Shown one piece after another: positions 12,820-41,116 of a stretch of 64,000 nucleotides of DNA. Origin of the DNA: Arthrobacter sp. C2. Lineage in GTDB: Bacteria; Actinomycetota; Actinomycetes; Actinomycetales; Micrococcaceae. The notes under the pieces were generated by a model. That model ran no database searches, was not told where the DNA came from, and saw only the letters and a program-made list of their open reading frames with translations. Position 1 is the stretch's first letter; the number at the start of each line of letters is the position of its first letter. The stretch lies in the NCBI GenBank assembly GCA_024207135.1, contig CP042428.1, positions 2,790,001 to 2,854,000 of the forward strand. Reading direction: 5' to 3'. Made by a program: the position numbers and the translations under genes.

Positions 12820-12848
12820 CTGACAATAACTATCTTCATAGGTAGTCT
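12820..12848 (+). promoter_or_regulatory. Predicted promoter of fdhA
   Basis: CTGACA (12820-12825), 17-bp spacer, TAGTCT (12843-12848). The same -10 sequence and the same spacing occur at vanA, and the 22-bp box fills the spacer in both. Confidence 0.6.
12825..12846. promoter_or_regulatory. VanR-type operator box at fdhA
   Basis: A 22-bp imperfect palindrome with core CTAT-CTTC-ATAG and right arm GTAGT. It runs from the last base of the -35 to the fourth base of the -10, so a bound protein would block RNA polymerase. It matches the vanA box I (minus strand) at 18 of 22 positions, although vanR itself lies 25 kb away. Confidence 0.65.
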
Positions 12849-12902
12849 AGCGTGACAAGCATCACGACCAAGGTTTGACCGCCAACACATAGGAGCCATT
12901 CA

Positions 12903-14123
12903 ATGTCAGGTAACAAAGCCGTCGCCTACAAGTCGCCGGGAATCGTCGAGGTCATCGACACCCCCTACCCCACCTTCGAACTGCAGGACGGACCCGGGGT
13001 GAACCCGTCCAACATCGGGCGCAAGGTCCCCCACGGCGCCATCCTGCGCACCGTGGCCACCAACATCTGCGGCTCCGACCAACACATGGTCCGCGGCCGC
13101 ACCACCGCCCCCGCCGGCCTGGTCCTCGGCCACGAAATCACCGGCGAGGTCATCGAAACCGGACCCGACGTCGAATTCCTCAAGGTCGGGGACATCGTCT
13201 CGGTCCCCTTCAACATCTCCTGCGGCCGCTGCCGCAACTGCAAGGAAGCCAAGACCGGCATCTGCCTGAACGTGAACCCCGACCGCCCCGGAAGCGCCTA
13301 CGGCTACGTCGACATGGGCGGCTGGGTCGGCGGCCAGGCCGAATACGTCCTGGTCCCCTACGCCGACTGGAACCTGCTCAAGTTCCCCGACCGCGACCAG
13401 GCCCTGGAAAAGATCATGGACCTGACCATGCTCTCCGACATCCTGCCCACCGGCTTCCACGGCGCGGTCACCGCCGGGGTCACCGTCGGCTCCACCGTCT
13501 ACGTCGCCGGCGCCGGGCCCGTCGGGCTCGCCGCCGCCGCCTCCGCCCAGCTGCTGGGCGCCGCGGTGGTCATCGTCGGGGACCTGAACGAGGACCGCCT
13601 CGCCCAGGCCCGCTCCTTCGGCTGCGAGGCGATCAACGTCGGCGCCGGGGACCCGGCCGACCAGATCGAGCAAATCCTCGGCGTGCGCGAGGTCGACTGC
13701 GGCATCGACGCCGTCGGCTTCGAGGCCCGCGGCCACGGCCACGGCACCCACGCGTCCGAGGCCCCGGCCACCGTGCTGAACTCCCTGATGGACCTCACCC
13801 GGGCCGGCGGCTCCCTGGGCATCCCCGGCCTCTACGTCACCGGGGACCCCGGCGCCGTGGACGAGGCCGCCCAGAAGGGCAGCCTGTCGCTGTCCCTGGG
13901 CACCGGCTGGGCCAAGTCCCTGTCCTTCGCCACCGGCCAGTGCCCGGTGATGAAGTACAACCGCCAGTTGATGATGGCGATCCTGCACGATCGCATCCAC
14001 ATCGCCAAGGCCGTCAACGCCCAGGCGATCCCCCTGTCCGACGCCCCGCGCGGCTACGCCGAGTTCGACGCCGGCGCGGCCACCAAGTACGTCCTGGACC
14101 CCAACGGCTACCTCTCCAACTAA
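12903..14123 (+). CDS. fdhA: Glutathione-independent formaldehyde dehydrogenase, zinc-dependent
   Basis: A 406-residue zinc-binding medium-chain dehydrogenase of the Pseudomonas FdhA type, oxidising formaldehyde to formate with tightly bound NAD and no glutathione. Visible marks: TNICGSDQHMVRGR with the catalytic-zinc cysteine, GHEITGEV with the zinc histidine-glutamate pair, CGRCRNCKEAKTGIC with the four structural-zinc cysteines, and the nucleotide fold VYVAGAGPVGLAAAASAQLLGA. It lies just after gbcAB, whose reaction makes formaldehyde, but has its own promoter with a VanR-type box, linking it also to formaldehyde from vanillate demethylase. A strong terminator follows. Confidence 0.93.
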   Translation: MSGNKAVAYKSPGIVEVIDTPYPTFELQDGPGVNPSNIGRKVPHGAILRTVATNICGSDQHMVRGRTTAPAGLVLGHEITGEVIETGPDVEFLKVGDIVSVPFNISCGRCRNCKEAKTGICLNVNPDRPGSAYGYVDMGGWVGGQAEYVLVPYADWNLLKFPDRDQALEKIMDLTMLSDILPTGFHGAVTAGVTVGSTVYVAGAGPVGLAAAASAQLLGAAVVIVGDLNEDRLAQARSFGCEAINVGAGDPADQIEQILGVREVDCGIDAVGFEARGHGHGTHASEAPATVLNSLMDLTRAGGSLGIPGLYVTGDPGAVDEAAQKGSLSLSLGTGWAKSLSFATGQCPVMKYNRQLMMAILHDRIHIAKAVNAQAIPLSDAPRGYAEFDAGAATKYVLDPNGYLSN

Positions 14124-14166
14124 ACCGGGACATCGGACCGGGATGCCGCGGTTCCACCTGCAGGCA

Positions 14167-14227
14167 GGCGACACGGTCGTTGCAGCACCCAGAGCGCTGG
14201 GGAGCCGCAACGACCGTGTCGCCTTTT
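14167..14227 (+). terminator. Rho-independent terminator after fdhA
   Basis: A perfect 17-bp stem: GGCGACACGGTCGTTGC at 14167-14183 and its complement at 14207-14223, followed by TTTT. One of the clearest terminators in the window. Confidence 0.88.
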
Positions 14228-14334
14228 AATGAAGTCCTTGCCAACCGGCGGAACCGCCCGGGCGCCGGGCCCCGCTTCCGCCAGGGCCGGGCCCGGCGCC
14301 CGCGTGCCGTACTCTCTGATATACCTAGGAACGG

Positions 14335-15024
14335 ATGACCATCCGGATCGCATCATCGACGAAGGGGCCAGGCACCGTGGCAAACACCGTCCCGGCGGGT
14401 AGGACGCAGGCGGAACACGCCTACCTGGAATTGCGCGAGCGCATCATCGACATGCGGCTGCCGCCCGGAAGCGCCCTCGACGAGGACGCGCTGATGCGCG
14501 ACCTGTCCGTCGGCCGGACCCCGATGCGCGAGGCGGTCAAGCGCCTGGAAACGGACCGGATGCTCAAGGTCTTCCCGCGCCGCGGGACCATCATCGCCGA
14601 CGTCAACATCCGCGACCTCAAGGACATCTCCGACGCGCGCCGTGTCCTGGAGGCCTTCGCCGCCCGGCGGGCGGCCGAGCAGGCCACCGAGGAGGACCGC
14701 GACATGCTGCGGGCCTGCCTGGCGGACGTCGAGGCCCGCTCCTTCGCCTCGAACCGGGCCTCGGTGGACCTGGACGCGCACATCCACCGCGCCGTGTACG
14801 CGGTGATGCGCAACAGCTACGTGGAAACCACGCTCATCCAGTACTTCCATCTCTCCCAGCGCATGTGGAACTTCGTGCTCTCCGGGCTCGAGCCCATCCA
14901 AGGCCACGTCAACGAGCACACCGCGCTGCTGCGCGCCATCATCGACGGGGACCCGGAGCTGGCCGCACGCCTGGCCGAGGAGCACATCACCCACTTCGAG
15001 AACCGCGTGCGCGAGGCCCTGTAG
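14335..15024 (+). CDS. GntR-family regulator, FCD type
   Basis: A 229-residue GntR protein: winged helix near residues 25-85 (LRERIIDMRLPPGSALDEDALMRDLSVGRTPMREAVKRLE, split here only as description of one continuous helix-turn-helix region) and an alpha-helical FCD effector domain with metal-type histidines (DAHIHRAV, EEHITHFENRV). It converges on dmgO across a shared hairpin and lies just after fdhA, so control of dimethylglycine or C1 genes is plausible but unproven. A GTG at 14377 is in frame and would give 215 residues; the ATG at 14335 has AGGA five bases before it. The string CTGATATA occurs in its own promoter (14316) and upstream of fchA (20210), a weak operator hint. Confidence 0.82.
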   Translation: MTIRIASSTKGPGTVANTVPAGRTQAEHAYLELRERIIDMRLPPGSALDEDALMRDLSVGRTPMREAVKRLETDRMLKVFPRRGTIIADVNIRDLKDISDARRVLEAFAARRAAEQATEEDRDMLRACLADVEARSFASNRASVDLDAHIHRAVYAVMRNSYVETTLIQYFHLSQRMWNFVLSGLEPIQGHVNEHTALLRAIIDGDPELAARLAEEHITHFENRVREAL

Positions 15025-15036
15025 CCGGGCACAAAA

Positions 15037-15068
15037 GAAGGCCGCCGGGGACCCGCCCGGCGGCCTTC
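15037..15068 (-). terminator. Terminator at the end of dmgO (shared with GntR gene)
   Basis: GAAGGCCGCCGGG at 15037-15049 pairs with its complement at 15056-15068. On the minus strand the stem is followed by TTTT, so it mainly serves dmgO; it may also stop the converging GntR transcript. Confidence 0.8.
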
Positions 15069-15088
15069 TCGGTACGCGGCCCGCGGAC

Positions 15089-18625
<3,537 letters not shown>

Positions 18626-19531
18626 TCAGTGGGGAACCGGCACCGGCGCCGGTTCGGTGGTGGATGGGGCGGCTGGTTTGGTGGGCCGGCGGGCGGCGAG
18701 CCCGGTGATGGTGTTGTGGAACAGCAATGCGGTGGTGATCGCCCCGACGCCTCCGGGGACCGGGCTGAGCGCAGCGGCCCGGGGTGCGACGGACCTGGCG
18801 TCGACATCCCCGGACAGGCGGCCGGCAGCGTCGTAGTTGGTGCCGACATCGACCACCACGGCGCCGTCGCCCACGTGCTCGCCGGTGACCAGGCCGGGAC
18901 TGCCCGCCGCGGCGACAAGGATCGAGGCCCCTAGGGTCGCCGCGGCCAGGTCCCTGGTCTTGGAGTGCGCCACCGTGACGGTGGCATCGCGGTTCAGGAA
19001 CAGGTGCAGCAGGGGCTTGCCCACCACCGGGGACCTGCCCACCACCGTCACGCGGGCACCTGCGAGTTCGACACCGTGGTGGTCGAGCAATTCGATGACT
19101 GCAGCGGCCGTCGCCGGGGCGAACCCGGCGCCGCCCGACATCCAGGTGGCCAGCGACAGCGGGTTGGCCCCGTCAACGTCCTTGTCCACGGCGATGGCCG
19201 TGGCGACCTGCTGCAGGGACACCCCGGCGGGCAGCGGCGTCTGCAGCATGACGCCGTGGACCGATGGATCCGCACTTGCGCCGGCCAGCGCGCGGCGGAT
19301 GGTTTCGGCCGGGGCGCCTTCGCCAAGCCGCTCCACGGTGACCCGGACGCCGATGCGGGTGCCATACCCAGTGAGGGCACGGACATAGGATTCGCTGGAG
19401 GGATCCGTCGTTGCGGTGACGATGTGCAGGCTGCGCTGCCCACCGGTCCGGGCCAGTTCGCCAACGCGCTCGATGGAGCGTTCGGTAAGGCCCGCCGCCA
19501 CGGCCCGGCCGTCGAGGATCCCGGCGCTCAT
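18626..19531 (-). CDS. folD: Methylenetetrahydrofolate dehydrogenase (FolD family) lacking the cyclohydrolase lysine
   Basis: A 301-residue FolD. The NADP fold is intact (VTVVGRSPVVGKPLLHLFL), as are the substrate segments MLQTPLPAG, KDVDGANP and PGGVGAITTALLF. The first catalytic motif, normally Y-V-x-x-K-x-K, reads YVRALTG here: Leu53 replaces the lysine needed for cyclohydrolase activity and Gly55 replaces the second lysine, with the spacing to the following G-I/V unchanged. So the protein probably oxidises methylene-folate to methenyl-folate but cannot hydrolyse it. The adjacent fchA, overlapping by four bases, would supply that step. The last 20 residues are a Pro/Ala-rich tail. Confidence 0.9.
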   Translation of the reverse strand: MSAGILDGRAVAAGLTERSIERVGELARTGGQRSLHIVTATTDPSSESYVRALTGYGTRIGVRVTVERLGEGAPAETIRRALAGASADPSVHGVMLQTPLPAGVSLQQVATAIAVDKDVDGANPLSLATWMSGGAGFAPATAAAVIELLDHHGVELAGARVTVVGRSPVVGKPLLHLFLNRDATVTVAHSKTRDLAAATLGASILVAAAGSPGLVTGEHVGDGAVVVDVGTNYDAAGRLSGDVDARSVAPRAAALSPVPGGVGAITTALLFHNTITGLAARRPTKPAAPSTTEPAPVPVPH

Positions 19532-20157
19532 GCCGCCACCGGGTTCCGGACCGACTCGACCAGGGCATCGGCACGGTTGCGCACCCGGGACACGTTTTGG
19601 AGGATCCGCTCGAAGTTGCGCAGCCTGGCGGGGTCCTTGACGGAGGGCAGGTTTGCCTCCAGGTTCACGACCGACGTGGAGACCGCGGCGCGGATGGACG
19701 CGGCGGCGGCGGCAACGTCAGCGATGACGCTGCTGTTGCCGATCGGGGCCAGTTCCTCGGCGAGGGCCACCAGCTCCCCGCAGACCACGATGAGTTTGGC
19801 CGGTGCGTCCGCGGCGGCGTCCAGGGCCCGGCCGATGGCTTCCCGGCGTTCCGCGGGGTCCAGGCCCACCCCGGGCTTGGCCGCGTAGGCCCGGCCGACG
19901 GCGTCGAACGCGCGGGCGTCCTCGTTGGCGGCGTCCAGCGAGCGTGCCTCCAGGACTTCAAGTTCGGCCAGGATGGCGGCCACCGCGGTCGAGACGTGCT
20001 CGAACTTCGGGCCCTGCGAATAGTTCGCCACCATGCGCAGCAGGCTGGCGCCGAGCGCCGCCTGCAGCCCCGCCACCGTTCCGCCGCCGGGCGAAGCGAT
20101 CCGCTTCCCGATGTCGCGGATCAATCCACCCACCGACTCGTCACGTATATCGATCAA
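19528..20157 (-). CDS. fchA: Methenyltetrahydrofolate cyclohydrolase / formiminotransferase-cyclodeaminase family
   Basis: About 209 residues, almost wholly helical, of the FTCD cyclodeaminase (FchA) family: IRDESVGGLIRDIGKRIASPGGGTVAG at the start with the conserved S-P-G-G-G-x-V/A-A loop, and ending in NFERILQNVSRVRNRAD. It should hydrolyse 5,10-methenyl- to 10-formyl-tetrahydrofolate. The chosen start is TTG at 20157, preceded by AAGGGG five bases away; an ATG at 20205 has no ribosome site and adds 16 residues not typical of the family. It is the first gene of the minus-strand C1 run and overlaps folD by four bases (ATGA). It fits neatly with a FolD that has lost its own cyclohydrolase lysine. 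Confidence 0.85.
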   Translation of the reverse strand: MIDIRDESVGGLIRDIGKRIASPGGGTVAGLQAALGASLLRMVANYSQGPKFEHVSTAVAAILAELEVLEARSLDAANEDARAFDAVGRAYAAKPGVGLDPAERREAIGRALDAAADAPAKLIVVCGELVALAEELAPIGNSSVIADVAAAAASIRAAVSTSVVNLEANLPSVKDPARLRNFERILQNVSRVRNRADALVESVRNPVAA

Positions 20158-20493
20158 CAGAACCCCTTTTTGCCGGTGTCGCCCTGGCCTCGCCCATTCA
20201 GGCATACAACTGATATATAACAGACCCTAGGTGAGCTTGGCCACACGTGTCAATGGTTTGGAGAAACGTGAATTCACTGGTGGACCGGCGGGGCAGGGAC
20301 CGGGCCCCTTTCACCCCGGAGCCGGGCCGCGCCGGAAGGAGCGACGCCCGGAACCCCGGCCTGGGCCGGCTCCAAACACGGCAAAAAGACGGTGGGCCAA
20401 GATCCCTCGCGCTACCTGCGCGCGAATGCCTGGCCCACCGTCCGGTTCCTGCCCCGGGGCCCGCGCTTCCACGGGTTCCGGTTGGTGCTTCCG
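20158..20493. other. Region between fchA and BCCT gene
   Basis: No gene seen. The left part must hold the fchA promoter (TATATAT at 20212-20218 region on the minus strand could be a -10); the right part holds the BCCT terminator given separately. Confidence 0.4.
20383..20442 (-). terminator. Terminator of the BetT-like transporter gene
   Basis: GACGGTGGGCCA at 20388-20399 pairs perfectly with TGGCCCACCGTC at 20431-20442. On the minus strand the stem is followed by TTTTT (20387-20383), about 50 bp after the gene's stop. Confidence 0.75.
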
Positions 20494-29502: not shown

Positions 29503-29544
29503 TGCCCCTTCATCTGGATTGACCCCCTGCCAAAACATTTTTTG

Positions 29545-29555
29545 CGCATCATGCG
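29545..29555. promoter_or_regulatory. Short palindrome in the IclR/P450 divergent promoter
   Basis: CGCAT-C-ATGCG, perfect over 11 bp, in an AT-richer setting midway between divergent starts. Short enough to occur by chance. Confidence 0.3.
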
Positions 29556-29624
29556 AATTTCACAATCCTTGCATGTAATTCAGATCATAGTTGTCATTCA
29601 GGAAGCAGACCCGAGGAACGAGGA

Positions 29625-30923
29625 ATGATCACCATGGAAACGAGCGCCATTACGGAATCGAGGTGCCCGTTCACCGACCGGGCCTCGCACGCCGAGCCCG
29701 AGGAGGCAACTGCGCCCGCAGCCGCGGAATCATCCGTGCCGGTTGGCGCAACCCTCAATTTGCCGGTCGCGGACTGGGTCGAGGTCGAACAGCTGCGCGT
29801 CGATCCCTACCCAACCTATGCGCGACTGCGTGATGAATCACCCGTGGTTTGGGTCCCCTCCATCAAAAAGGTTCTGGTCGCGTCCTTCGCCGGATGCCTC
29901 TTCGGGGAACAGCACCCTGACATATTTTCCAACGACGTTTCCGGAGCACACATGACCCGGGCGTTCGGCGGGCAGCCGATGATCCGCAAAGACGGAGCCG
30001 CCCACGCTGCCGAACGCAGCGTCATCAATCCCACGTTGCGACCGAAGAAAATCGCCCAGGTCTGGGAACAACGGTTTCGATCCAACACCGACACCTACTT
30101 GGATGCGTTGGAAGCAGCCGGTCCAGGTGCCGACCTCAACGAGGTCTTCGCTGCCCCGTTGGCTGCCAAGAACCTCATCGATCTGCTGGGCCTGACTGGC
30201 GTCTCCCCCACGGATCTTGCCCGGTGGTCGGCGGATTTCATTGCCGGGGCAGGAAACGTCCTCGGTAACGAAGACATCTGGCTTCGCTGCCGGCGTTCTC
30301 GAGCGGAAGTGGATGTTGCCCTTGACGAGGCGCTCCCGAGACTCCGGAAGCACCCCGACGACTCCATGACCTCGTTGCTGCTACATGCCGACATGCCGCT
30401 CGAAAGCGTCCGGGCCAATGTCATTCTTGCCATCTCGGGCGGAGTCAGCGAGCCGCAGCACATCACTACATCGAGCGTCTCGCTGTTGACGCAGCATCCC
30501 GAACACCTGGCCTGGGCACGCGCGGATCCCAAGAACTTCGCTCACGTATTCCAGGAAACCGTGAGGTTCCAGAGCCCGATCGGCATGGTCACGCGCGAAA
30601 CCAAGACCAGCACCGAAATCGATGGTTTCCAGATCCCCGCGGGCAGCCAAATCGGCCTCTTGGTGGCCTCCGCCAACAGGGACGCGAGCAATTTCGAAGA
30701 CCCCGAACATTTCAATCCCCGCCGTTCGGAACGCCGCCATTTGGGGTTCGGAAGCGGGAACCACATGTGTGCCGGGAAGTGGGCTGCCGAGACAGCCATC
30801 GGAAACGTCGCGGTCCCGGCACTCTATGAGCGTTTCCCCCAACTGAGCACGGATCCGGCGAACCCCGGGATCAAGGACGGATGGGCATTTCGGGGATTCA
30901 AGTCCCTTCCCGTCATTTGGTAG
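29625..30923 (+). CDS. Cytochrome P450, CYP255 (GcoA)-like, probable aryl O-demethylase
   Basis: A 432-residue soluble P450. The haem loop is LGFGSGNHMCAGKWAAE with Cys382; ExxR is Glu311-Arg314. The I-helix reads SGGVSEPQH (271-279): a Glu-Pro pair stands where most P450s have the acid-alcohol (D/E-T) pair. From memory, guaiacol demethylase GcoA has Q-E-P at the same place, and the end of the protein (GWAFRGFKSLPV) also resembles GcoA's GWGFRGPTSL. So O-demethylation of a methoxylated aromatic is the best guess. GcoA uses a one-piece reductase GcoB; here a separate ferredoxin and reductase follow. CYP199A-type methoxybenzoate demethylases are the alternative. GAGGA lies seven bases before the ATG. 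Confidence 0.85.
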   Translation: MITMETSAITESRCPFTDRASHAEPEEATAPAAAESSVPVGATLNLPVADWVEVEQLRVDPYPTYARLRDESPVVWVPSIKKVLVASFAGCLFGEQHPDIFSNDVSGAHMTRAFGGQPMIRKDGAAHAAERSVINPTLRPKKIAQVWEQRFRSNTDTYLDALEAAGPGADLNEVFAAPLAAKNLIDLLGLTGVSPTDLARWSADFIAGAGNVLGNEDIWLRCRRSRAEVDVALDEALPRLRKHPDDSMTSLLLHADMPLESVRANVILAISGGVSEPQHITTSSVSLLTQHPEHLAWARADPKNFAHVFQETVRFQSPIGMVTRETKTSTEIDGFQIPAGSQIGLLVASANRDASNFEDPEHFNPRRSERRHLGFGSGNHMCAGKWAAETAIGNVAVPALYERFPQLSTDPANPGIKDGWAFRGFKSLPVIW

Positions 30924-30980
30924 ACCGCAAGACAACCAAGCTATGCACCGACGCCGCACAACGAAGTGAAAGGAATCAGC

Positions 30981-32309
30981 ATGCAAATTGACACTCGCAT
31001 CGCCTCCGCAAGCGAAAAAGCCCGCACGCGAGAAATCCGTAAGGTAGTTTTCTCCAGCTATTTCGGCACAGCCGTCGAGTTCTACGATTTCCTCCTATAC
31101 GCGACGGCCTCCGCTGTTGTCTTCGGACCTGTCTTCTTCTCCGACCTTTCCCCATGGGCAGGCATCGTGGCCTCCTATGGAACGTTTGCCACCGGATATC
31201 TCGCGCGCCCCTTGGGCGGAATCATCTTCGGTCACTTCGGGGACAAAGTGGGCCGCAAGAAGCTGTTGGTCATTTCCATGCTCATGATGGGGTTGGCCTC
31301 CACTGCGATCGGTCTTGTGCCTCCGTCAGCAATGATCGGCTCCTGGGCCGCAGTCATCCTCGTGACCCTGCGCGTCATCCAAGGAATCGCCGTGGGCGGC
31401 GAATGGGGTGGGGCCGCACTGATGGCCTTGGAGCACGCTGACTCCAAGAAGCGCGGATTTGCAGCGTCATTCGTCAACGCAGGGGCTCCGAGCGGTTCGG
31501 TCTTGGGACTGATCATTATGGGACTCTTCTCTTCTCTTCCCCAGGAGCAATTCCTCAGCTGGGGCTGGCGCGTGCCTTTCCTGCTGTCGTTCGTGCTGCT
31601 TCTCGTCGGGTTGTACATTCGCAAAAACGTTTCCGAGAGCCCCATCTTCCTTCAAGCGAGCGAGCAGCAAACCGCCAAGGGCCAAGAACCAGCCCGCTCA
31701 CCCCTCGTGCAAGTTCTACGTCGCCCCAAGGGCCTGCTTGTGGTGATCTTCGCGGCGATGTCAGCCTTCGCATTGCAGACCACGTTGTCGACCTTCGCTA
31801 TCACGTTCACGGTGTCTCACGGCGTTGCGCGCCAGGATGTCATGTTCATGTTTGCCATTGCCGGAGTGATCAGCATCTTCACGACTCTGTTATTCGGTCG
31901 GCTCTCGGACCGATGGGGCAGGCGTCCGTTGATGATCGTTGGCAACGTTGCATTTCTGCTCGTCTTGCCAGTGGTTTTCCCGCTCTTGGCTTCGGGCAAC
32001 CTCTTTCTCATCTTCCTGGGATTCGCTCTGGGGATCATCACCCAGACGGTCATCTACGGACCCATGGCGGCGTTCATTGCAGAACGGTTCGGCACCAAGT
32101 CCCGCTACACCGGAGCATCCATGGGCTACCAGCTGGCAACGGTTTTGGGCGCCGGGTTCACCCCCGCGATCCTGGCATCGCTCTACGCACCGGCTCAGGC
32201 GACCGGTCCAGTCATGGTGTACCTCGGCACCCTTGCGGTCATCAGCTTGGTCACCGTCATCTTCATGAAGGAATCCAAGGACAACGACCTGAGCTCAGTT
32301 TCCAATTAG
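30981..32309 (+). CDS. MFS transporter, metabolite:H+ symporter (MHS) family, in the P450 operon
   Basis: A 442-residue permease with GTAVEFYDFLLYATASAVVFG, GHFGDKVGRKK and GGEWGGAALMALEHA. The ATG at 30981 with AAAGGA in front is preferred over a GTG at 30966. It lies 57 bp after the P450 gene and 46 bp before the ferredoxin gene on the same strand, so it most likely imports the P450 substrate. Base use is less GC-rich than the pca and gbc genes nearby, as for the rest of this operon. Confidence 0.87.
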   Translation: MQIDTRIASASEKARTREIRKVVFSSYFGTAVEFYDFLLYATASAVVFGPVFFSDLSPWAGIVASYGTFATGYLARPLGGIIFGHFGDKVGRKKLLVISMLMMGLASTAIGLVPPSAMIGSWAAVILVTLRVIQGIAVGGEWGGAALMALEHADSKKRGFAASFVNAGAPSGSVLGLIIMGLFSSLPQEQFLSWGWRVPFLLSFVLLLVGLYIRKNVSESPIFLQASEQQTAKGQEPARSPLVQVLRRPKGLLVVIFAAMSAFALQTTLSTFAITFTVSHGVARQDVMFMFAIAGVISIFTTLLFGRLSDRWGRRPLMIVGNVAFLLVLPVVFPLLASGNLFLIFLGFALGIITQTVIYGPMAAFIAERFGTKSRYTGASMGYQLATVLGAGFTPAILASLYAPAQATGPVMVYLGTLAVISLVTVIFMKESKDNDLSSVSN

Positions 32310-32355
32310 CCATTACGACACCACTCAATCCCCACGACAACAAGGGAGTACCACC

Positions 32356-32676
32356 ATGATCACGGCAACTTTCAACAACTACATCGGTGGAGCTGAACTG
32401 GTAAAGATGGAACAGGGAGTCTCCATCATGAAAGCCGCCATCCTCAATGGCGTCGGAAACATCGTCGGCGAGTGCGGGGGCCAGGCCATGTGTGCCACCT
32501 GCCACGTGATTGTTCGACCTGAACACCGCGAGCAGCTGCCTCCGCTGAGCGAAGACGAAGACGAGATGCTTGATTGTGCGGCCACAGCCAGAGCGGAAGG
32601 TTCACGGTTGGGATGCCAACTCAAGGCCGGAGAACACTTTTCCACCATTGAAGTCGACCTGCCGGAGACCCAGTAA
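32356..32676 (+). CDS. [2Fe-2S] ferredoxin, putidaredoxin type
   Basis: A 106-residue ferredoxin with cluster ligands Cys40, Cys46, Cys49 and Cys87 (GECGGQAMCATCH and RLGCQL). The spacing agrees almost exactly with putidaredoxin and adrenodoxin-type proteins that serve P450s. It hands electrons from the following reductase to the P450. Its stop overlaps the reductase start by one base (TAATG). Confidence 0.93.
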   Translation: MITATFNNYIGGAELVKMEQGVSIMKAAILNGVGNIVGECGGQAMCATCHVIVRPEHREQLPPLSEDEDEMLDCAATARAEGSRLGCQLKAGEHFSTIEVDLPETQ

Positions 32677-33935
32677 TGAACATCTCGGAACACCTCCAGA
32701 GCGCCGTGATCATCGGAACGGGACACTCAGGAGTTCAGGCGGCCGAGACTTTGAGGGAATCGGGCTGGACCGGACGAATCGTTCTCCTTGGCGAGGAGCA
32801 GCATGCCCCCTACCAAAGGCCTCCCCTGTCCAAGGACTACCTGGACTTGGACAAGGCAGCAGGACCGCTTCCTTTGCGGGCACCATCGTTCTTCGAGGAA
32901 CACCGGATCGAACTGCGTCTTGGTGTTCGGGTTGAGTCCATCGACCGTGCAGCCCGCTCGGTGCGGCTTTCCGGCCGCGAACAGGTACCGTTTTCCAAGC
33001 TTGTTATCGCCACCGGCGCTTCCAACCGGGCGCTGGATATCCCCGGGTCGGCGCTTTCAGGAATCGTGGGTCTGAAGTCGTTGGACGACGCAGGGAACCT
33101 GCGTGAACTCTTGGGTCCGGCCTGGAATATCGTGGTCGTTGGCGCGGGGTTCATCGGGCTTGAATTTGCCTCGGCGGCGCGCGCCATGGGGAAGAACGTG
33201 ACGGTACTTGAGTTTGCTGACCGTCCCATGTCCAGGGCCTTGAGCCCCGCCATGGGAGATTTCTTCGCCCGGCACCACGTGGACGCCGGAATCAACCTCC
33301 GCCTGAGCGAAGGCATAGCTTCCTTCCTTGGCGATGAGGACGGGAACGTGGCAACTGCGGTCTCGACATCGGGTTCTCAGTACGCCGCGGACCTCGTGGT
33401 GGTCGGCGTCGGAGTCGTCCCCAACACCGGACTGGCGCGGGCCGCCGGACTGCCAGTGGACAACGGGATCGTCGTGGACCACGACCTGCGGACCGAGGAC
33501 CCCGACATCTACGCCGTGGGCGACTGCGCTTCCTTCCCGAGCCCGACGGGCACCGGGCGCATCCGGTTGGAGTCGGTGCAGAACTCGACCGACCAAGCCA
33601 AGCACGCCGCGGGACAGATCGCCGGCGGCGCAGATGCACGGTACGAGCCGGTGCCGTGGTTCTGGTCGATCCAGGGCGGCGTTCGTCTGCAAATTGCCGG
33701 GTTGTCTTCACCCGGAAATGAGACGGTGCTGCGCGGGGACCCGGGCAGCGGCAAGTTCTCGGTGTTCTGCTTTGACGGGGAAGTCCTCACGGCCGTCGAA
33801 TCCGTCAACAGGCCCGGAGACCACGTTGCCGCAAGAAAGCTCCTGGGCCGGGTCCTGGCGGTGACGCCGGAGCAATGCGGCGACACGGCGTTCGATCTCA
33901 AATCCCAGTCGAATGCGTTGGCCCTGACCGGGTGA
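32676..33935 (+). CDS. NAD(P)H:ferredoxin reductase, FAD type
   Basis: A 419-residue putidaredoxin-reductase-like flavoprotein: N-terminal FAD fold (VIIGTGHSGVQAAETLRESG, where the second G-x-G position is T-G-H), FQRPPLSK-type segment YQRPPLSKDYL, NAD fold IVVVGAGFIGLEFASAARAMG, and a second FAD segment IYAVGDCASFPS. It completes the three-component P450 electron chain. One-base overlap with the ferredoxin gene implies coupled translation. A strong terminator follows. Confidence 0.93.
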   Translation: MNISEHLQSAVIIGTGHSGVQAAETLRESGWTGRIVLLGEEQHAPYQRPPLSKDYLDLDKAAGPLPLRAPSFFEEHRIELRLGVRVESIDRAARSVRLSGREQVPFSKLVIATGASNRALDIPGSALSGIVGLKSLDDAGNLRELLGPAWNIVVVGAGFIGLEFASAARAMGKNVTVLEFADRPMSRALSPAMGDFFARHHVDAGINLRLSEGIASFLGDEDGNVATAVSTSGSQYAADLVVVGVGVVPNTGLARAAGLPVDNGIVVDHDLRTEDPDIYAVGDCASFPSPTGTGRIRLESVQNSTDQAKHAAGQIAGGADARYEPVPWFWSIQGGVRLQIAGLSSPGNETVLRGDPGSGKFSVFCFDGEVLTAVESVNRPGDHVAARKLLGRVLAVTPEQCGDTAFDLKSQSNALALTG

Positions 33936-33941
33936 GCCCGC

Positions 33942-33991
33942 AGACGGACCATCGGTGCCAGGGTGCCTCCCTGCACCGATGGTCCGTCTTT
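33942..33991. terminator. Terminator between P450 operon and vanK (convergent)
   Basis: AGACGGACCATCGGTGC at 33942-33958 pairs with its complement at 33973-33989, a perfect 17-bp stem, followed by TT then G on the plus strand. It lies between two convergent genes and can serve both. Confidence 0.8.
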
Positions 33992-34071
33992 GGTGCATGG
34001 TCGCCAATCCGGAGCGCCGTCCGTTGCCCGGCCGCCGCCTCCACGGGAACGAGAGCATAGCTACTTAAGTG

Positions 34072-35436
34072 CTACCGTCCGTCAACAACCACAAGCGCCT
34101 CGACGTCGACGGCAGCGACCGGTTCGGCGGCCTGCGGCGAACGCATCAAGCCAATGGCCACTGCCGCGACCAAGACCACGATGCCCACGCCCAGGTACAG
34201 CTGCCCGGCGCTCCAGGCCGCATCCAGCAGTGCACCGGCTGCCAGCGGCGCGAGGATTGCGCCGAACCGCCCGATGCCAATTGCCCAACCGACGCCGGTG
34301 CCGCGTGTATGCGGGGCATAGGAGGCAGGTGCCAGCGTGTACAGGCCGGCAATGCAGCCATTGATGAGCATTCCAACGACGATGCCCATTCCAAAAGCCA
34401 GAGCCAGGATGCCGACGGCCGAAATGAACAACACCATCGTGATCGAGGAGAGCACGGTGAAGACCAGCAGCACCTTGCGCGTTTGCCACGTGGTGGTCAG
34501 CGCGCCAAAGAGCAAGGCTCCAAACGTCCCGCCAAGGGTCAGCATGAGCCCGCCGACCACGCCTTGGCTTTCGGTCATGCCGGCGGTCACCAACAGCTTT
34601 GGCGTCCAGCTGTTGACGAAGTAGAAGCCGAACATGGTGGCGAAGAAGGCGACCCAGATCAGGCCGGTGGCACGTCGGTTGGCCGGCGAGAACAGTGCCG
34701 TCACCTGCTGCCCCCTTACGCCACGGCCCGCGTTATGGCCGGCGAGGTCGGGAAGCAGGACCGTATCCTCTGCCAGACGGAGTTTGCGGGCAAGAACTGC
34801 GAGGCGTTTCCCGGCGCGCGGCGGCCTCTTGGTGATCAGGAAGTCCACTGACTCGGGCACGACCGCCAGCAACAGCAGGAAGGCTACGGTGGTGGCGATG
34901 CCGCCAAAGACGAAGACCGATCGCCAGCCGTGGGCGGCCTGCAGCGAGACCGCGGCCATGCCGCCTAGTGTGGCGCCGACGCCGTAGCCGGCGGTGTAGA
35001 TGCTCACGGCCATGCCGCGCCAGCGCTTGTTGGAGTACTCGCTGGTGATGACGTTGGTGCAGGCCAGGATGCCGCCGACGCCCAATCCGGTGGCCACGCG
35101 CCACAATCCAAGCTCGGTCACCGAATGCGCGGTAGAGGAAAGGAACATGCCGGCCGCGGCCAGCCCGGTGGTGAACAGCAGCATCGGGCGACGCCCGAAG
35201 ACGTCCGCAAAGGGTGCGAGGAACAGGGAACCGGCGGCCATGCCAAGGAGTCCGGCGCTGAGCAGAACACCAAGTTGGGAACCGCTGAGCCCGAATTCGG
35301 TGGAGACGCGGTTGGCGGTGAAGGCCATGGCCAACACATCGAACCCGTCGAGGGCGTTGAGTAAGGTGCAGACACCGACGACCACCCATTGGAAAGGGGC
35401 CATAGGAGAGGCGTCGATGCGTTCTCTGATATTCAT
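34072..35436 (-). CDS. vanK: MFS aromatic acid:H+ symporter, vanillate transporter
   Basis: A 454-residue permease of the aromatic acid:H+ symporter (AAHS) branch, like PcaK and VanK. The first-helix motif LLNALDGFDVLAMAFTA holds the DGxD-type signature, and the helix 2-3 loop reads APFADVFGRRPML. The start MNIRERIDASPMAPFQW at 35436 is typical; a GTG at 35463 lies upstream. It is the last gene of vanA-vanB-vanK, 87 bp after vanB, the same order as vanABK in Corynebacterium. Its likely cargo is vanillate, with protocatechuate and 4-hydroxybenzoate as possible extra substrates. Confidence 0.87.
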   Translation of the reverse strand: MNIRERIDASPMAPFQWVVVGVCTLLNALDGFDVLAMAFTANRVSTEFGLSGSQLGVLLSAGLLGMAAGSLFLAPFADVFGRRPMLLFTTGLAAAGMFLSSTAHSVTELGLWRVATGLGVGGILACTNVITSEYSNKRWRGMAVSIYTAGYGVGATLGGMAAVSLQAAHGWRSVFVFGGIATTVAFLLLLAVVPESVDFLITKRPPRAGKRLAVLARKLRLAEDTVLLPDLAGHNAGRGVRGQQVTALFSPANRRATGLIWVAFFATMFGFYFVNSWTPKLLVTAGMTESQGVVGGLMLTLGGTFGALLFGALTTTWQTRKVLLVFTVLSSITMVLFISAVGILALAFGMGIVVGMLINGCIAGLYTLAPASYAPHTRGTGVGWAIGIGRFGAILAPLAAGALLDAAWSAGQLYLGVGIVVLVAAVAIGLMRSPQAAEPVAAVDVEALVVVDGR

Positions 35437-35523
35437 GATGGTGCGCTTCCGTTTTTTGGACACGACAAATCACCCGCCAAGCCTCCGGACGGGAAACCTG
35501 GCGGGGAGTCAGCCGGGCTCCTG

Positions 35524-36531
35524 CTAGTTGGGTTCGATGGTGATCACGGCCGGTCCGGCGCCCGCATCGGTCCGGGAACCTGTCGGGGAGGTGACAGCGC
35601 GAGAGACGCAGCAGTTCATCTTCGTGCCCTGGCGCTGCTGGCGCTCGGAATAGAACACGTCGCGGTGGTCGATGGCACCGGAGAGCTCGGTGATGCGGAC
35701 CTCGCAGAGCCCGCATTCTCCCTTGCGGCAGTCGAACATCATCTCCGCGCCCGCGTCCTCGAGGGCCTCGAGCATGGAGCGGCCCTGCGGGACCGTGACC
35801 TCCAGGTTGAGCTTGGGAACCCTGACGATGAATTCCTCGGGGTCGTACCAGCCGCTGTTGCCGAAGGTCTCGTAACGAAGGTTGGGCAAATCCAGCTCGC
35901 GCTCCACCCAGGTGCGGCGCACCGCGTCCATCAGCCGGATGGGCCCGCACATGTACAGTTCGGTGTCCGCATCGGCGCGGCCCACCAGCGCGGGGACGCT
36001 CAGCGAGGAGCCCTCGTCATCGACGTGCACCTCGAGCCGCTCGCCGTGCAGGTCGGACAGCTCCGCCAGGTACGCCATGGCGCCCCGGCTGCGTCCGACG
36101 TACACCAGCGTGTAGTCGGCCTTCAGCCGTTTGAGCACCGCTGCCATGTTGGCGATTGCGGTGATGCCGATGCCTCCGGCGAGCAGGATGTAGCGCCGGG
36201 CGCCGACGCGCAGCGGGAAGTTCTGCAGCGGCTGGGTGATTTCAAGTCGCTGCCCCGGAACGAGTGAGTGCATGAAGATCGAGCCTCCCCGCGAGAGCGG
36301 CGCCTTCATCACGCTGATCACCAGCCGGGTCCCGTCGTGGTTCGATTCCACCACCGAGTAGGAGCGTTTTGCCTGTTCCCCGTTGATTTCGACCATCAGG
36401 TCCACGTGTGATCCCGGTTCGGCCTTGAGCGGCAGGGAGGGTATGAGCACGATGCGTGCAATGCCGTCGGCGACCGGAACCACCTGTTCGACGGTGGCCG
36501 ATTGCCAGGTTTCAATGTTGGTTGCTGCCAT
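35524..36531 (-). CDS. vanB: Vanillate O-demethylase reductase subunit
   Basis: A 335-residue class IA-type reductase: flavin domain with KRSYSVVES, NAD domain with YILLAGGIGITAIANMAAVL and LYMCGPIRLMDAV, and a C-terminal [2Fe-2S] ferredoxin domain with CRKGECGLC and a later cysteine in MNCCVSRAV. It moves electrons from NADH to VanA. It follows vanA with a 36-bp gap. The last 20 residues after the final cysteine pair are a slightly long tail. Phthalate-type reductases are close relatives; pairing with VanA and VanR settles the call. Confidence 0.93.
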   Translation of the reverse strand: MAATNIETWQSATVEQVVPVADGIARIVLIPSLPLKAEPGSHVDLMVEINGEQAKRSYSVVESNHDGTRLVISVMKAPLSRGGSIFMHSLVPGQRLEITQPLQNFPLRVGARRYILLAGGIGITAIANMAAVLKRLKADYTLVYVGRSRGAMAYLAELSDLHGERLEVHVDDEGSSLSVPALVGRADADTELYMCGPIRLMDAVRRTWVERELDLPNLRYETFGNSGWYDPEEFIVRVPKLNLEVTVPQGRSMLEALEDAGAEMMFDCRKGECGLCEVRITELSGAIDHRDVFYSERQQRQGTKMNCCVSRAVTSPTGSRTDAGAGPAVITIEPN

Positions 36532-36567
36532 GGTCCTTGTCCGTATCCTTCGCTGTCCGTCTCCGCC

Positions 36568-37662
36568 TTAGGCGGAGGCGGCCAGGCGTCCCTCGGCGGC
36601 CAGCATCGCTTCGAGGATGCGGCGCACCCACATGCCGCCCGAATCGATGTTCAGGTTGTAGAACTCGTAGTCCGGGTTGGCGTCGATGGCTGCCTGCTGG
36701 GCCATGAGCATTTCCTCGTCCTCGCCAAAGACCCCGTGCACGCCGTCGCGCAGCTGGGTGGTGATCAGCTGGCTGTCCAGGCAGTAGTTGCGCATGAAGG
36801 CCCAGAAATAATGGGAGGACCTGTCGGTTTCCGGGGTAATGGTGTTCATGACGAAGCCGTTGACGCCCTGGCTGCGGTCGCCCTCCGGTGCACCGGTGCC
36901 GGCCTTGGCCACCCCCACGTCGATGCTGATGGTGGAGGGCGCCTCGAAGTTGATGATCTGCCAGCGGTCGACCTTGCCCTCGAAACCGGGGAACTTGTCG
37001 CGCATGTTCTTGAGCCAAAACGGCGGGGCGTCGATGTTGTGCATCCAGCGCGTGACGGTCACCTTGTTGCCCTCGCGCACGGTGACAAAGTCGGACTCGC
37101 TGAGTTCCTCCTGGCCGATCGTGGAGGAATGGACGAACTCCTCATGGGTCAGGTCCATGAGGTTGTCCAGCACCAGCTGGAAGTTGCAGGCCGCGTGGAT
37201 GGTCAGCCCGTCTCCCGCCCACTCGTCGGACGTCATCTGGTGCATGTCCGGCACCAGATCCGGGTCGGCCAGCGTCGGGTCGCCCATCCAGATCCACACA
37301 TAGCGGTAGCGCTCCACGACGGGGAACGAGGGGACGGTGGCGGACGGGTTGATGGTTTCCTGCGCCGGCATGGAGACGCAGCGGCCGGCCGAGTTGTAGA
37401 TGATGCCGTGGTACGGGCACTGGATGGTGTCCTTTTCCATGGTCTTGCCCATGGACAGCGGTGCCAGCCGGTGCCAGCAGGCATCCGCCAGCGCGACGGC
37501 CCTGCCGTCCTCGGTGCGGTAGAGGGCCACGGGCCGGTTGGCAATGCGGCGGGACATCGGCTTGCGGGTGACCTCATGGTCCCAGCCGGCCACGTACCAG
37601 GCGTTCAGCGGGTGGGGCAGGACCTTGTTGGTGGTGGAGCTTGTCGTGGCGACGACGGTCAT
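36568..37662 (-). CDS. vanA: Vanillate O-demethylase oxygenase subunit
   Basis: A 364-residue Rieske oxygenase of the VanA/dicamba-demethylase branch. Rieske ligands are Cys62, His64, Cys82 and His85 (DACWHRLAP and CPYHG); the mononuclear iron site is in DNLMDLTHEEFVH with Asp170, His173 and His178. It converts vanillate to protocatechuate and formaldehyde. The start at 37662 (MTVVATTSST) has AAAGGA in front; a longer frame to 37689 runs into the operator. It is first in vanABK, divergent from vanR, with two operator boxes between them. Confidence 0.95.
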   Translation of the reverse strand: MTVVATTSSTTNKVLPHPLNAWYVAGWDHEVTRKPMSRRIANRPVALYRTEDGRAVALADACWHRLAPLSMGKTMEKDTIQCPYHGIIYNSAGRCVSMPAQETINPSATVPSFPVVERYRYVWIWMGDPTLADPDLVPDMHQMTSDEWAGDGLTIHAACNFQLVLDNLMDLTHEEFVHSSTIGQEELSESDFVTVREGNKVTVTRWMHNIDAPPFWLKNMRDKFPGFEGKVDRWQIINFEAPSTISIDVGVAKAGTGAPEGDRSQGVNGFVMNTITPETDRSSHYFWAFMRNYCLDSQLITTQLRDGVHGVFGEDEEMLMAQQAAIDANPDYEFYNLNIDSGGMWVRRILEAMLAAEGRLAASA

Positions 37663-37690
37663 GGGGTTTTCCTTTCGATACGGCAGCAAA

Positions 37691-37712
37691 ACTACCTATC
37701 GACATAGTTAGT
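37691..37712. promoter_or_regulatory. VanR-type operator box I (vanA side)
   Basis: The best copy of the 22-bp palindrome: ACTA-C-CTAT-CGAC-ATAG-T-TAGT, 16 of 22 positions paired in eight base pairs. It lies downstream of the predicted vanA transcription start, in the leader. It resembles, from memory, the published VanR site of Corynebacterium glutamicum (AACTAACTAA-n4-TTAGGTATTT). Confidence 0.75.
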
Positions 37713-37716
37713 GGTG

Positions 37717-37744
37717 TTGGTCATAGACTAACTGCGGATATAGT
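37717..37744 (+). promoter_or_regulatory. Predicted vanR promoter
   Basis: TTGGTC (37717-37722), 16-bp spacer, TATAGT (37739-37744), overlapping box II, which implies autoregulation. Confidence 0.5.
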
Positions 37745-37753
37745 GATTTGCAA
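37725..37753 (-). promoter_or_regulatory. Predicted vanA promoter
   Basis: On the minus strand TTGCAA (37753-37748), 17-bp spacer, TAGTCT (37730-37725). The -10 is identical to that of fdhA. Confidence 0.6.
37727..37748. promoter_or_regulatory. VanR-type operator box II (promoter core)
   Basis: ACTA-A-CTGC-GGAT-ATAG-T-GATT, a weaker copy centred 36 bp from box I. It spans from the last base of the vanA -35 to the fourth base of the vanA -10, and overlaps the vanR -10, so one bound dimer could shut both promoters. Confidence 0.65.
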
Positions 37754-37777
37754 CACCCGTGACCGCCGAAAGTTGCT

Positions 37778-38359
37778 ATGAGTCTCCGTAACGCATTGTT
37801 CGCCCTGCTCGTTGTCGAGCCGATGACCGGATACGACCTGCACAAGCAGTTCGAGTCCTCGGTCGGCCACGTGTGGCACGCCCCCGACTCGCAGATCTAT
37901 CCGGAGCTCAGGCGCATGGAGTCCGAGGGCCTGCTCGAAGGCGAGGAAATCCCCTGGGGCCCGCGTGGCAAGAAGCGCCAGTACCACGTGACCGAGGCGG
38001 GCAAGGCTGCATTCAGGAACTGGATGAACACCCCGCTGGAATACGCCCGCACCCGCGACCCCGCACACCTCAAGGCCGCCTATCTGGAATGGGCGGATCC
38101 GGATGCCGCCCGGGAGCAGTTGCGCGCCCACATCGAACACCACACGGGGCTTCTGGGCCAATGGCGCGAAAAGGTCAGGGAAATCGAGGATGGCTCCAGC
38201 GCCATGCTCAACCGGCGCCTGGCCAACACCCCGGAGGCCGACCGCGAAAAGACCAGCGCCTACAAGATCTACACCTACGAGGGGCTCATGTCCCAGGCGG
38301 AGGCAGAAATCGCCTGGGCCCGGCGCGGACTCAAGCTCATCGACCGGCTCAACGGCTGA
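37778..38359 (+). CDS. vanR: PadR-family regulator of vanillate catabolism
   Basis: A 193-residue PadR protein: N-terminal winged helix (MSLRNALFALLVVEPMTGYDLHKQF, then IYPELRRMESEGLLEGEE with the wing GKKRQYHVTEAG) and a C-terminal helical dimerisation domain (PadR Vir_act_alpha_C type) to residue 193. It is divergent from vanABK, like vanR in Corynebacterium, where VanR is a PadR repressor released by vanillate. The repeated 22-bp boxes at vanA, fdhA, ligM, metF and the 39.9-kb lipoprotein gene are its likely targets. Binding and effector are inferred. Confidence 0.87.
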   Translation: MSLRNALFALLVVEPMTGYDLHKQFESSVGHVWHAPDSQIYPELRRMESEGLLEGEEIPWGPRGKKRQYHVTEAGKAAFRNWMNTPLEYARTRDPAHLKAAYLEWADPDAAREQLRAHIEHHTGLLGQWREKVREIEDGSSAMLNRRLANTPEADREKTSAYKIYTYEGLMSQAEAEIAWARRGLKLIDRLNG

Positions 38360-38480
38360 CCGCCAGCCCCATTCGCCCCGAGCCGGCCACCGCTGGGCCG
38401 CCCTTGTAAACTCCCGGAACCTGTAGCTCAATGGCATGGAAGGCACTCGAGCGTGCCATGGCAAGACGGAGGATGGGAAC

Positions 38481-38882: not shown

Positions 38883-38924
38883 CCGACCCTCCCCCTGGCC
38901 ATGGACACCATCGTGCATCCGGGA

Positions 38925-38946
38925 TATACCTATGGGGATAGGCAAT
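38925..38946. promoter_or_regulatory. VanR-type operator box at metF (weaker)
   Basis: The core CCTAT-GGGG-ATAGG (38929-38942) is a perfect 5-4-5 palindrome with the same CTAT-n4-ATAG centre as the other boxes, but the outer arms fit only partly (14 of 22 against the fdhA box). It lies 46 bp before the metF ATG. Confidence 0.45.
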
Positions 38947-38987
38947 GATGCCGACCTGCCCCACGGGGCACGAAAGGGGCACCACCG

Positions 38988-39839: not shown

Positions 39840-39867
39840 GACGGGGACCAGGAGCATGCAGAACCGA

Positions 39868-39905
39868 CGGCGGCCTGCCGGGAAACCGTTCCCGGCAGGC
39901 CGCCG
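39868..39905. terminator. Bidirectional terminator metF / lipoprotein gene
   Basis: GGCGGCCTGCCGGGAA (39869-39884) and TTCCCGGCAGGCCGCC (39889-39904) form a perfect 16-bp stem, extended by one C-G pair, with a four-base loop between convergent genes. No T-tract. Confidence 0.65.
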
Positions 39906-39924
39906 ACGTCATGCTTGGTAGGAG

Positions 39925-40923
39925 CTACTTTGACGGCAGCAGCGCCGTGAGGTCCGGGATCTTTTCAATGAGTCCGCGGTCCAGCGAGATCTCGGCAATC
40001 TTCTCGATGGAGGCCTCGTTGACCTCGGTGTAGTACCTCGGCATCGTCAGCTTCTCGATGACATCCGGCTCCAGCGAGGTGTAGTCCGGCAGGACGGCCT
40101 TGGCCTTGTCGGGGTTCTCGTCGGCGAACTTCTGCGAGGCCTTCATGGCACGAGCAAACTTGGCCGCCGTTTCGGGATTTTCCTTGATGTATTCATCCGA
40201 AGTGAAGTAGACGGCGACGGTCAGGTCATCGACCGGTTCGGCATAGTTGGAGAAGATCGGAACATTGCCGTCTGCCTCGGAGATGGTCACGAACGGTTCG
40301 ACGGCCGCCATTGCATCGACGTTGCCGGCAGCGAGCTGGGCCGCCATGTCGGGGAAGCCCATTTCCACGAAGTGGACCTGTTTGTAGTCCCCGCCGGCGA
40401 GCTTCACCGCCTCGCTGATGGTGGAGTCCGAGATGTTGTTCAGGGTGTTTACGGCGACCTTCTTGCCGACCAGGTCCTTGATGTCCTTGATGCCGCTGTC
40501 CGGCTTGGTCATCACCGAGGCGAAGTCCGCCTTGGTGTCGCCGGTGGAGCTACCCCCGGGTGCCACCATCTTCAGGGGCAGGCTCTTTGAGCGGGCCACG
40601 ATCATGGAGGTGACGTTCGAGAACCCGAAGTCCATCTGCTTGCTCATGATGGCCGGGACGATGGCCGCCCCTCCCTGGGCCAGCGTCAGCTTGACGTCCA
40701 GGCCCTCCTTTTCGAAGAGCCCCTCCTTGACGCCCAAGTAGATCGGGGCGACGTCCACGATCGGGATCACGCCGACCTCGACCTTTTCCAGTCCCGTGGC
40801 GGCGCCGCTGCCGGATGCGCCTTCTGTGGACGATTCGGCCGGGCCGGTCGACGGCGATCCGCTCCCGCAGGCCGCCAAGCTCAGTGCCGCGAGCAGGGCC
40901 AACGCCCCTTTGATTCTCTTCAT
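39925..40923 (-). CDS. ABC transporter substrate-binding lipoprotein, NitT/TauT (SsuA/ThiY) type, copy 1
   Basis: A 332-residue lipoprotein: signal peptide with lipobox LSLAACGSG, a Ser/Gly-rich linker, then a two-lobed binding domain beginning VEVGVIPIVDVAPIYLGVKEGLF. It lacks its own permease or ATPase here. The motif I-P-I-x-D-x-A-P-I is shared with the lipoproteins at 44.5 and 49.2 kb, which marks them as paralogues; the ABC importer at 46.7-49.1 kb could serve all. The ATG at 40923 has GGAG nine bases upstream. It is divergent from ligM and its promoter region carries a VanR-type box, so vanillate or a related methoxy-aromatic acid is a likely ligand. Confidence 0.85.
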   Translation of the reverse strand: MKRIKGALALLAALSLAACGSGSPSTGPAESSTEGASGSGAATGLEKVEVGVIPIVDVAPIYLGVKEGLFEKEGLDVKLTLAQGGAAIVPAIMSKQMDFGFSNVTSMIVARSKSLPLKMVAPGGSSTGDTKADFASVMTKPDSGIKDIKDLVGKKVAVNTLNNISDSTISEAVKLAGGDYKQVHFVEMGFPDMAAQLAAGNVDAMAAVEPFVTISEADGNVPIFSNYAEPVDDLTVAVYFTSDEYIKENPETAAKFARAMKASQKFADENPDKAKAVLPDYTSLEPDVIEKLTMPRYYTEVNEASIEKIAEISLDRGLIEKIPDLTALLPSK

Positions 40924-40979
40924 GCTGGTCTCCAGGATTCCCGGGGTCACCCCCGAAAGAAAAGTGATGTACGTCGCAT

Positions 40980-41001
40980 ACTACCTATTTCGATAGTGTT
41001 T
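40980..41001. promoter_or_regulatory. VanR-type operator box at the 39.9-kb lipoprotein gene
   Basis: ACTACCTAT-TTC-GATAGT plus outer bases; on the minus strand it matches the fdhA box at 17 of 22 positions. With the same geometry as at fdhA, the -10 would be TAGTAT (40983-40978), a good hexamer, while the -35 is poor. Confidence 0.55.
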
Positions 41002-41094
41002 TGGGGCATAACGACGGGACCAAATACTTGGGCGCGCAACTTCACGGCCTCCGGGGCTCCGCGGCAAGGCCGGGTGGGGTTTGATTTTCCGAAA

Positions 41095-41116
41095 AGTAAC
41101 TATCGACTTAGTGAGT
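41095..41116. promoter_or_regulatory. VanR-type operator box at ligM
   Basis: AGTAACTATC-GAC-TTAGTGAGT, 16 of 22 matches to the fdhA box in the same orientation, 108 bp before the ligM start. Together with the box at 40980 it makes two boxes in this divergent region, 115 bp apart. Confidence 0.5.

Follow-up and report, generated by a model that had tools for sequence, protein, structure and literature searches.

Vanillate, a product of lignin, can be demethylated by the Rieske oxygenase VanAB or by the tetrahydrofolate (THF)-dependent enzyme LigM, and genes for both routes stand in one stretch of the genome of the soil actinobacterium Arthrobacter sp. C2 (contig CP042428.1). This stretch of 64,000 nucleotides, called the window hereafter, covers bases 2790001-2854000 of a genome that consists of one contig of 4,555,954 bp; coordinates are those of the window unless stated otherwise. 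The question raised by this locus is whether one regulator, the PadR-family protein VanR encoded at 37778, governs both routes. The window contains six copies of a 22-bp dyad, ACTA-n-CTAT-n4-ATAG-n-TAGT, at 12825, 37691, 37727, 38925, 40980 and 41095. A preliminary description had listed six boxes at these coordinates, and all six were found there. We consider it very probable that they are operators through which VanR regulates both demethylation routes and the handling of one-carbon (C1) units.

Six boxes in the window and their rarity in the genome

The boxes were scored with a matrix that is called held-out here, as all its training boxes came from vanR loci of other genera and none from the window. 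Its training set, A1, consisted of 30 boxes adjoining vanR in 16 of 20 loci from outside the genus (L015-L034), entered on both strands as 60 rows. Three near copies (L017, L020 and L026) and a locus without a box (L031) were omitted, and L024 and L029 contributed one box each. The boxes and the genes that they precede or accompany are as follows.

12825..12846, no strand assigned: putative VanR box before fdhA; 32.9 bits with the held-out matrix, covariance model E 0.06 genome-wide
12903..14123, + strand: fdhA, glutathione-independent formaldehyde dehydrogenase (TIGR02819, 742.1 bits, cut-off 636.95)
34072..35463, - strand: MFS transporter, likely vanK (TIGR00895 aromatic acid/H+ symport, 339.5 bits, below the cut-off of 418.55)
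35524..36531, - strand: vanB, reductase subunit (Fer2 40.4 bits, cut-off 21; NAD_binding_1 and FAD_binding_6 domain matches)
36568..37662, - strand: vanA, Rieske oxygenase subunit (VanA_C and Rieske domains)
37691..37712, no strand assigned: putative VanR box I, before vanA; 34.5 bits with the held-out matrix, no mismatch to the consensus
37727..37748, no strand assigned: putative VanR box II, before vanR; 23.0 bits with the held-out matrix
37778..38359, + strand: vanR, predicted PadR-family repressor (PadR PF03551 53.1 bits and Vir_act_alpha_C PF10400 31.6 bits, both above cut-off)
38925..38946, no strand assigned: putative VanR box before metF; lowest of all six scores with the held-out matrix, 12.9 bits
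38988..39839, + strand: metF-like gene for a divergent methylenetetrahydrofolate reductase (MTHFR) (PF02219, 26.5 bits; best solved relative 7xg9/7xlf, E 2.5e-76)
39925..40926, - strand: SsuA/NMT1-type binding protein (NMT1 domain; TIGR01728 130.4 bits, below the cut-off of 163.5)
40980..41001, no strand assigned: putative VanR box ahead of the binding-protein gene; held-out matrix score 18.9 bits
41095..41116, no strand assigned: putative VanR box before ligM; 24.9 bits with the held-out matrix
41224..42630, + strand: ligM, THF-dependent vanillate/3-O-methylgallate O-demethylase (NF047885, 895.9 bits, cut-off 580)

When the window was scanned with the held-out matrix, the six boxes occupied ranks 1-6 with the scores listed above, and the seventh site reached 2.2 bits. 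No site of at least 12 bits was found with this matrix in 6 Mb of an order-2 Markov null. Over the whole genome the core pattern ANTNNCTATNNNNATAGNNANT, allowing up to one mismatch, matched at exactly five places (12825, 37691, 38925, 40980 and 41095 in window numbering), and the reversed-pattern control gave 0 matches; box II (37727) does not fit the core pattern at this tolerance. The hundreds of random genome sites that, according to the preliminary description, would have refuted its proposal were thus not seen, the five places being all among its own six. These results confirmed that the six boxes are real, beyond chance.

Two other searches carried less weight. When up to three mismatches were allowed, a stricter consensus matched four genome places, all in the window; it was dropped as proof because its control also had four matches. 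The covariance model R1, a sequence-only model of the vanR boxes, returned only vanA box I (E 0.007) and the fdhA box from the genome at E up to 10; the matrix and the core pattern were preferred because this model was underpowered and missed the four weaker boxes. Compared with the fdhA copy, vanA box I matched at 18 of 22 positions, the box of the binding-protein gene at 17 and that of ligM at 16, as described previously, and vanR box II at 16 in the better of the two orientations. The previous value of 14 for metF held for the direct orientation only, the better orientation giving 15. In a test of local conservation over eight genomes of the genus and 279 stretches of 22 bp, the ligM box ranked 9 and the metF box 12 for identity, both being better conserved than the sequence around them.

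The boxes end 56 (fdhA), 28 (vanA), 29 (vanR), 41 (metF), 53 (binding-protein gene) and 107 bp (ligM) before the start codons, distances that are compatible with repression.

The product of vanR matched the solved chains 6lg2 (E 6e-49) and 5z7b (E 6.8e-49) over residues 1-191, that is, as a full-length relative; the entries are named only as PadR or predicted regulators, and we take them to be VanR of Corynebacterium glutamicum. That protein was reportedly described by Morabbi Heravi et al. in 2015 as a PadR-like repressor of vanABK. Its operator, taken to be AACTAACTAA-n4-TTAGGTATTT, would have the same half-site layout as the boxes described here; this sequence scored a mean of 15.0 bits over all n4 and 22.1 bits with the best n4.

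The vanR gene adjoins vanA, vanB and the aromatic-acid MFS gene, which lie on the opposite strand. The MFS gene adjoins vanB on the same strand and is a better candidate for the transporter than the product of 39925..40926, for which "lipoprotein" is the label of the preliminary description only. The gene labelled metF there encodes a divergent MTHFR, and an ordinary MetF (200.9 bits) is encoded elsewhere, at genome position 3955531. The best solved relatives of the divergent form, 7xg9 and 7xlf, are presumably S6MTHFR, and those of LigM are 5x1i and 5tl4 (E 2.6e-224).

VanR and the box in other genomes

The occurrence of the box was compared with that of VanR in a sample of 197 genomes of the family, in which a genome was counted as VanR-positive when it had a match at E 1e-40 or better and as box-positive when it had a box with up to two mismatches. 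There were 71 VanR-positive and 56 box-positive genomes. The box was present in 52 of the 71 VanR-positive and in four of the 126 VanR-negative genomes (P 1.2e-26). VanR was also found in 52 of the 56 genomes with LigM. Within the genus group a model match was seen in 13 of 15 genomes, and the two without a match (G094 and G141) also have no VanR. These results indicated that the box and VanR occur together.

The box was likewise found at the vanR gene itself. It was located upstream of vanR in 29 of 30 fetched family loci, the window's included and L031 being the exception, mostly as two boxes about 36 bp apart, so that the spacing of boxes I and II recurs in relatives. A set of 80 VanR loci from named records, kept out of 275 relatives and including some of the training genomes, were scanned at a threshold of 12 bits. 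At least one box was present in 75 of them, with a total of 161 boxes in 1.24 Mb, as compared with a mean of 1.5 boxes (range 0-8, 30 trials) when column-permuted matrices were applied to the same loci. At ligM, where 30 loci were fetched and a threshold of 10 bits was used, a box was found in 21 of the 27 loci from VanR-positive genomes and in none of the three from VanR-negative genomes.

Gene order varies among the relatives, and the boxes remain with ligM, metF, fdhA and the gene of the binding protein, which they precede in part at places not linked to vanR. One genome (G163) has a box before an fdhA-ligM pair and another before metF, about 1.3 Mb from vanR. Two boxes precede ligM in five g32 genomes, on a contig different from that of vanR, and five g8 genomes have a box of their own before the binding-protein gene. 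A single cluster in G198 contains, in order, vanBA, two boxes, vanR, a box, metF, the binding-protein gene, a box, ligM, fdhA, a box, an ABC transporter and a box. The boxes at this transporter (L150:11245-16274) are not shared by its homologues in the window (46602-50139). The arrangement box-metF-purU-ligM-vanR was found in Microbacteriaceae, and other genera have the order box, metF, (purU), ligM, vanR. Another genome (G104) encodes two VanR proteins, of which one accompanies ligM and the other vanA; both loci carry the same kind of box.

A tree of 81 VanR proteins was labelled by the linked demethylase, which was vanA for 53, ligM for 18, both for six and neither for four. The change counts are approximate, as one row (L281) was labelled "neither" although VanA is present there. 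The ligM label needs five changes, each forced by well-supported branches, and the label "both" forms a single group (98/81) that includes the window. Therefore, the regulator switched partner more than once. The best reading of these data is that VanR is a predicted vanillate-responsive repressor that can serve the one demethylation chemistry or the other, and serves the two together in the window. More broadly, it is likely that the PadR-type VanR of Actinomycetota and its 22-bp box make up a portable module, tied to the substrate and not to a particular chemistry. This module would have been rewired several times between the Rieske (VanAB) and folate (MetF-PurU-LigM) routes, Paeniglutamicibacter holding both, and some lineages would have added formaldehyde disposal through one of two near-identical fdhA copies under unrelated promoters.

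In five neighbourhoods (L221, L222, L223, L224 and L226) two or three LigM-type demethylases are encoded, of which one shares no more than about 42-43% identity with LigM of the window; their substrates may differ.

Membership of fdhA and other explanations

Several observations weigh against assigning all six boxes to VanR. The A1 training boxes were originally found with a matrix built from the window's own six. No box with up to two mismatches was detected in 19 of the 71 VanR-positive genomes, and the four genomes with a box and no VanR (G046, G113, G129 and G173) are exceptions in the other direction. Boxes of at least 12 bits were missing from five of the 80 named VanR loci (L298, L303, L314, L317 and L320), and boxes of at least 10 bits from six of the 27 ligM loci of VanR-positive genomes. 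The box of the binding-protein gene ranked 83 of 279 in the eight genomes of the genus, no better conserved than its surroundings. Promoter scans returned a single match, which lies at fdhA on the opposite strand, and none at vanA and vanR; they were uninformative and lent the repression geometry no support. Finally, fdhA is the patchiest member, with a box in only eight of 61 VanR-positive fdhA genes, and the aligned place in the two nearest relatives (G111 and G022), both VanR-positive, has a decayed box or none. The aligned place in the VanR-negative G141 is in the same state.

Two of the boxless loci (L303 and L320) belong to Citricoccus and Micrococcus and encode VanR-like proteins beside binding-protein and acyl-CoA-ligase-like genes. 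These proteins possibly have a different specificity.

The data on fdhA bear on the alternative that survives best, a smaller regulon made up of vanA(BK), vanR, metF, the binding-protein gene and ligM. The box before fdhA would then be a relic, and FdhA would mainly serve the C1 cluster beside it (14335-20205), which encodes a GntR regulator, a dimethylglycine-oxidase-like protein, PurU, FolD and an FTCD_C protein. The low count, the decay of the box in the nearest relatives and this neighbourhood all favor it. However, vanA box I is the only site of the genome that outscores the fdhA box, and a box was found before none of 32 VanR-negative fdhA genes (P 0.047 against the eight of 61). This survey was a sample of fdhA matches and included the second copies of five genomes (G000, G111, G022, G062 and G163) and a short stretch (L173). 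In all eight cases, over three genus groups, the distance from box to fdhA start is 55-59 bp, and a ninth box is present in G198. Paeniglutamicibacter terrestris also has a box at fdhA, and no ligM was found in it. In addition, fdhA precedes ligM in a single box-led pair in four genomes (G163, G176, G122 and G062). The smaller regulon is judged unlikely. The idea that one PadR protein coordinates the whole set, put forward in the preliminary description, is supported by the comparative data and the co-occurrence of box and VanR for vanA, vanR, metF, the "lipoprotein" gene and ligM; fdhA joins it as a patchy member only. Control of fdhA as a general trait of VanR-positive genomes was ruled out by the count of eight in 61. 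The C1 cluster may share FdhA.

The genome contains a second fdhA at genome position 2039163 (L141:3164-4384), which over the full coding sequence is identical to the first at 1207 of 1221 bases and has unrelated flanks. No box was found at the second copy in the window genome, G111 or G022. Gene conversion limited to the coding sequence, with the two copies under two promoters, would leave the pattern seen in these sequences. The genes around the second copy seem to have no link with C1 metabolism.

A different regulator could read the boxes away from vanA, either a second PadR protein or one of the regulators encoded nearby (GntR at 14335, IclR at 23056 and 28729, LysR at 24876 and 45607). 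We regard this as very unlikely: a single matrix derived from vanR-adjacent boxes fits all boxes, the genome encodes just one protein with a VanR match that reaches E 1e-40, and the boxes track VanR over genomes and persist when gene order changes. Least likely is that the weaker boxes, at metF and the binding-protein gene, are chance AT-rich matches as their low score and low conservation rank, respectively, might suggest, since the genome-wide core pattern picks both and nothing outside the window, boxes precede metF in several genera, and the five g8 genomes have binding-protein boxes.

Proposed mechanism and its relation to known systems

We propose, by analogy with C. glutamicum, that a VanR dimer would bind each 22-bp dyad and hold the genes that start nearby at a low level, namely vanA(BK), vanR, metF, the binding-protein gene, ligM and fdhA. 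Binding of vanillate to VanR would then release all targets together. The VanAB route would turn the methoxy group into formaldehyde, which FdhA is expected to oxidise to formate. The LigM route would transfer the methyl group to THF, and the MetF-like enzyme would probably run in the oxidative direction, returning 5-methyl-THF to the folate C1 pool. Both routes could thus operate side by side with disposal of formaldehyde and 5-methyl-THF.

Parts of this scheme are known already. VanR of C. glutamicum represses vanABK and is inactivated by vanillate in vitro, and a PadR-type VanR beside vanA, vanB and an MFS gene is common to that system and the window (PMC8358305, in the part available). That part names only vanABK as target (PMC8358305), whereas here metF, ligM, fdhA and the gene of the binding protein have boxes as well, at distances of up to 25 kb. 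A further difference from vanABK is that in relatives boxes are found on separate contigs or at a distance of over 1 Mb. Control of ligM has been described in Sphingobium by an unrelated protein: DesR of Sphingobium sp. SYK-6 is a MarR repressor of the ligM-metF-ligH operon, desB and desR that acts at a 15-bp repeat (PMC6888825, accessible portion). What it shares with the system proposed here is a vanillate-responsive repressor whose targets, at separate loci, include ligM and a metF linked to LigM. DesR differs in its family, the regulator of the window being PadR, and in its repeat, which has another sequence; the accessible portion names neither vanAB nor a formaldehyde dehydrogenase (PMC6888825). 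In the literature covered here, PadR-type VanR is described for vanABK only, and control of ligM for Sphingobium with DesR.

Two other systems resemble single parts of the locus. In Pseudomonas sp. NGC7 the fdhA copies are divided between aromatic (syringate) O-demethylation and sarcosine catabolism, a division similar to that suggested for the two copies here. Unlike the single VanR proposed for the window, NGC7 uses two regulators, the GntR repressor VanR2 for vanA1B1 and the LysR activator GalR for the operon with fdhA2 (PMC12314914, as far as its available text goes). The introduction of that article, in the same portion, reviews the regulators reported for vanAB and gives DesR as that of ligM; none of them joins VanAB and LigM (PMC12314914). 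A LigM-coupled S6MTHFR of Sphingobium lignivorans SYK-6 oxidises 5-methyl-THF and supplies C1 units in an organism that has no glycine cleavage (PMC12585457). The combination of LigM with a divergent MTHFR is common to both (PMC12585457), but here the divergent MTHFR stands beside the oxygenase route and a separate ordinary MetF. No report of a joint VanAB/LigM regulon was found in the titles and abstract starts of the open-access literature, subscription papers lying outside this search.

If the proposal is true, one regulator and its operator would predict when an actinobacterium uses the route that consumes oxygen and forms formaldehyde, when the folate route that conserves C1 units, and when the two together. 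The operator model could then serve to locate methoxy-aromatic genes in Arthrobacter, Microbacterium and their kin, and it would give a directly testable target list for lignin-converting hosts. It would also be an example of a regulon arranged by substrate and by-product, not by operon.

Other genes of the window lie close to this system. The region 28729-33935 encodes an IclR regulator, a cytochrome P450, an MFS transporter, a ferredoxin and a ferredoxin reductase. The best solved relative of the P450 is 6g71 (E 2.8e-100), followed by the aromatic O-demethylase GcoA (E about 1e-45), and the cluster is perhaps a third demethylation route. It was rejected as a further VanR target, as the held-out matrix found no box there in the scan of the window. 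On the far side of ligM (42799-45549) are genes for an acetolactate/sulfoacetaldehyde-type thiamine pyrophosphate (TPP) enzyme and for another binding protein of the SsuA type. A box sits between the homologues of these two genes in one relative (G038).

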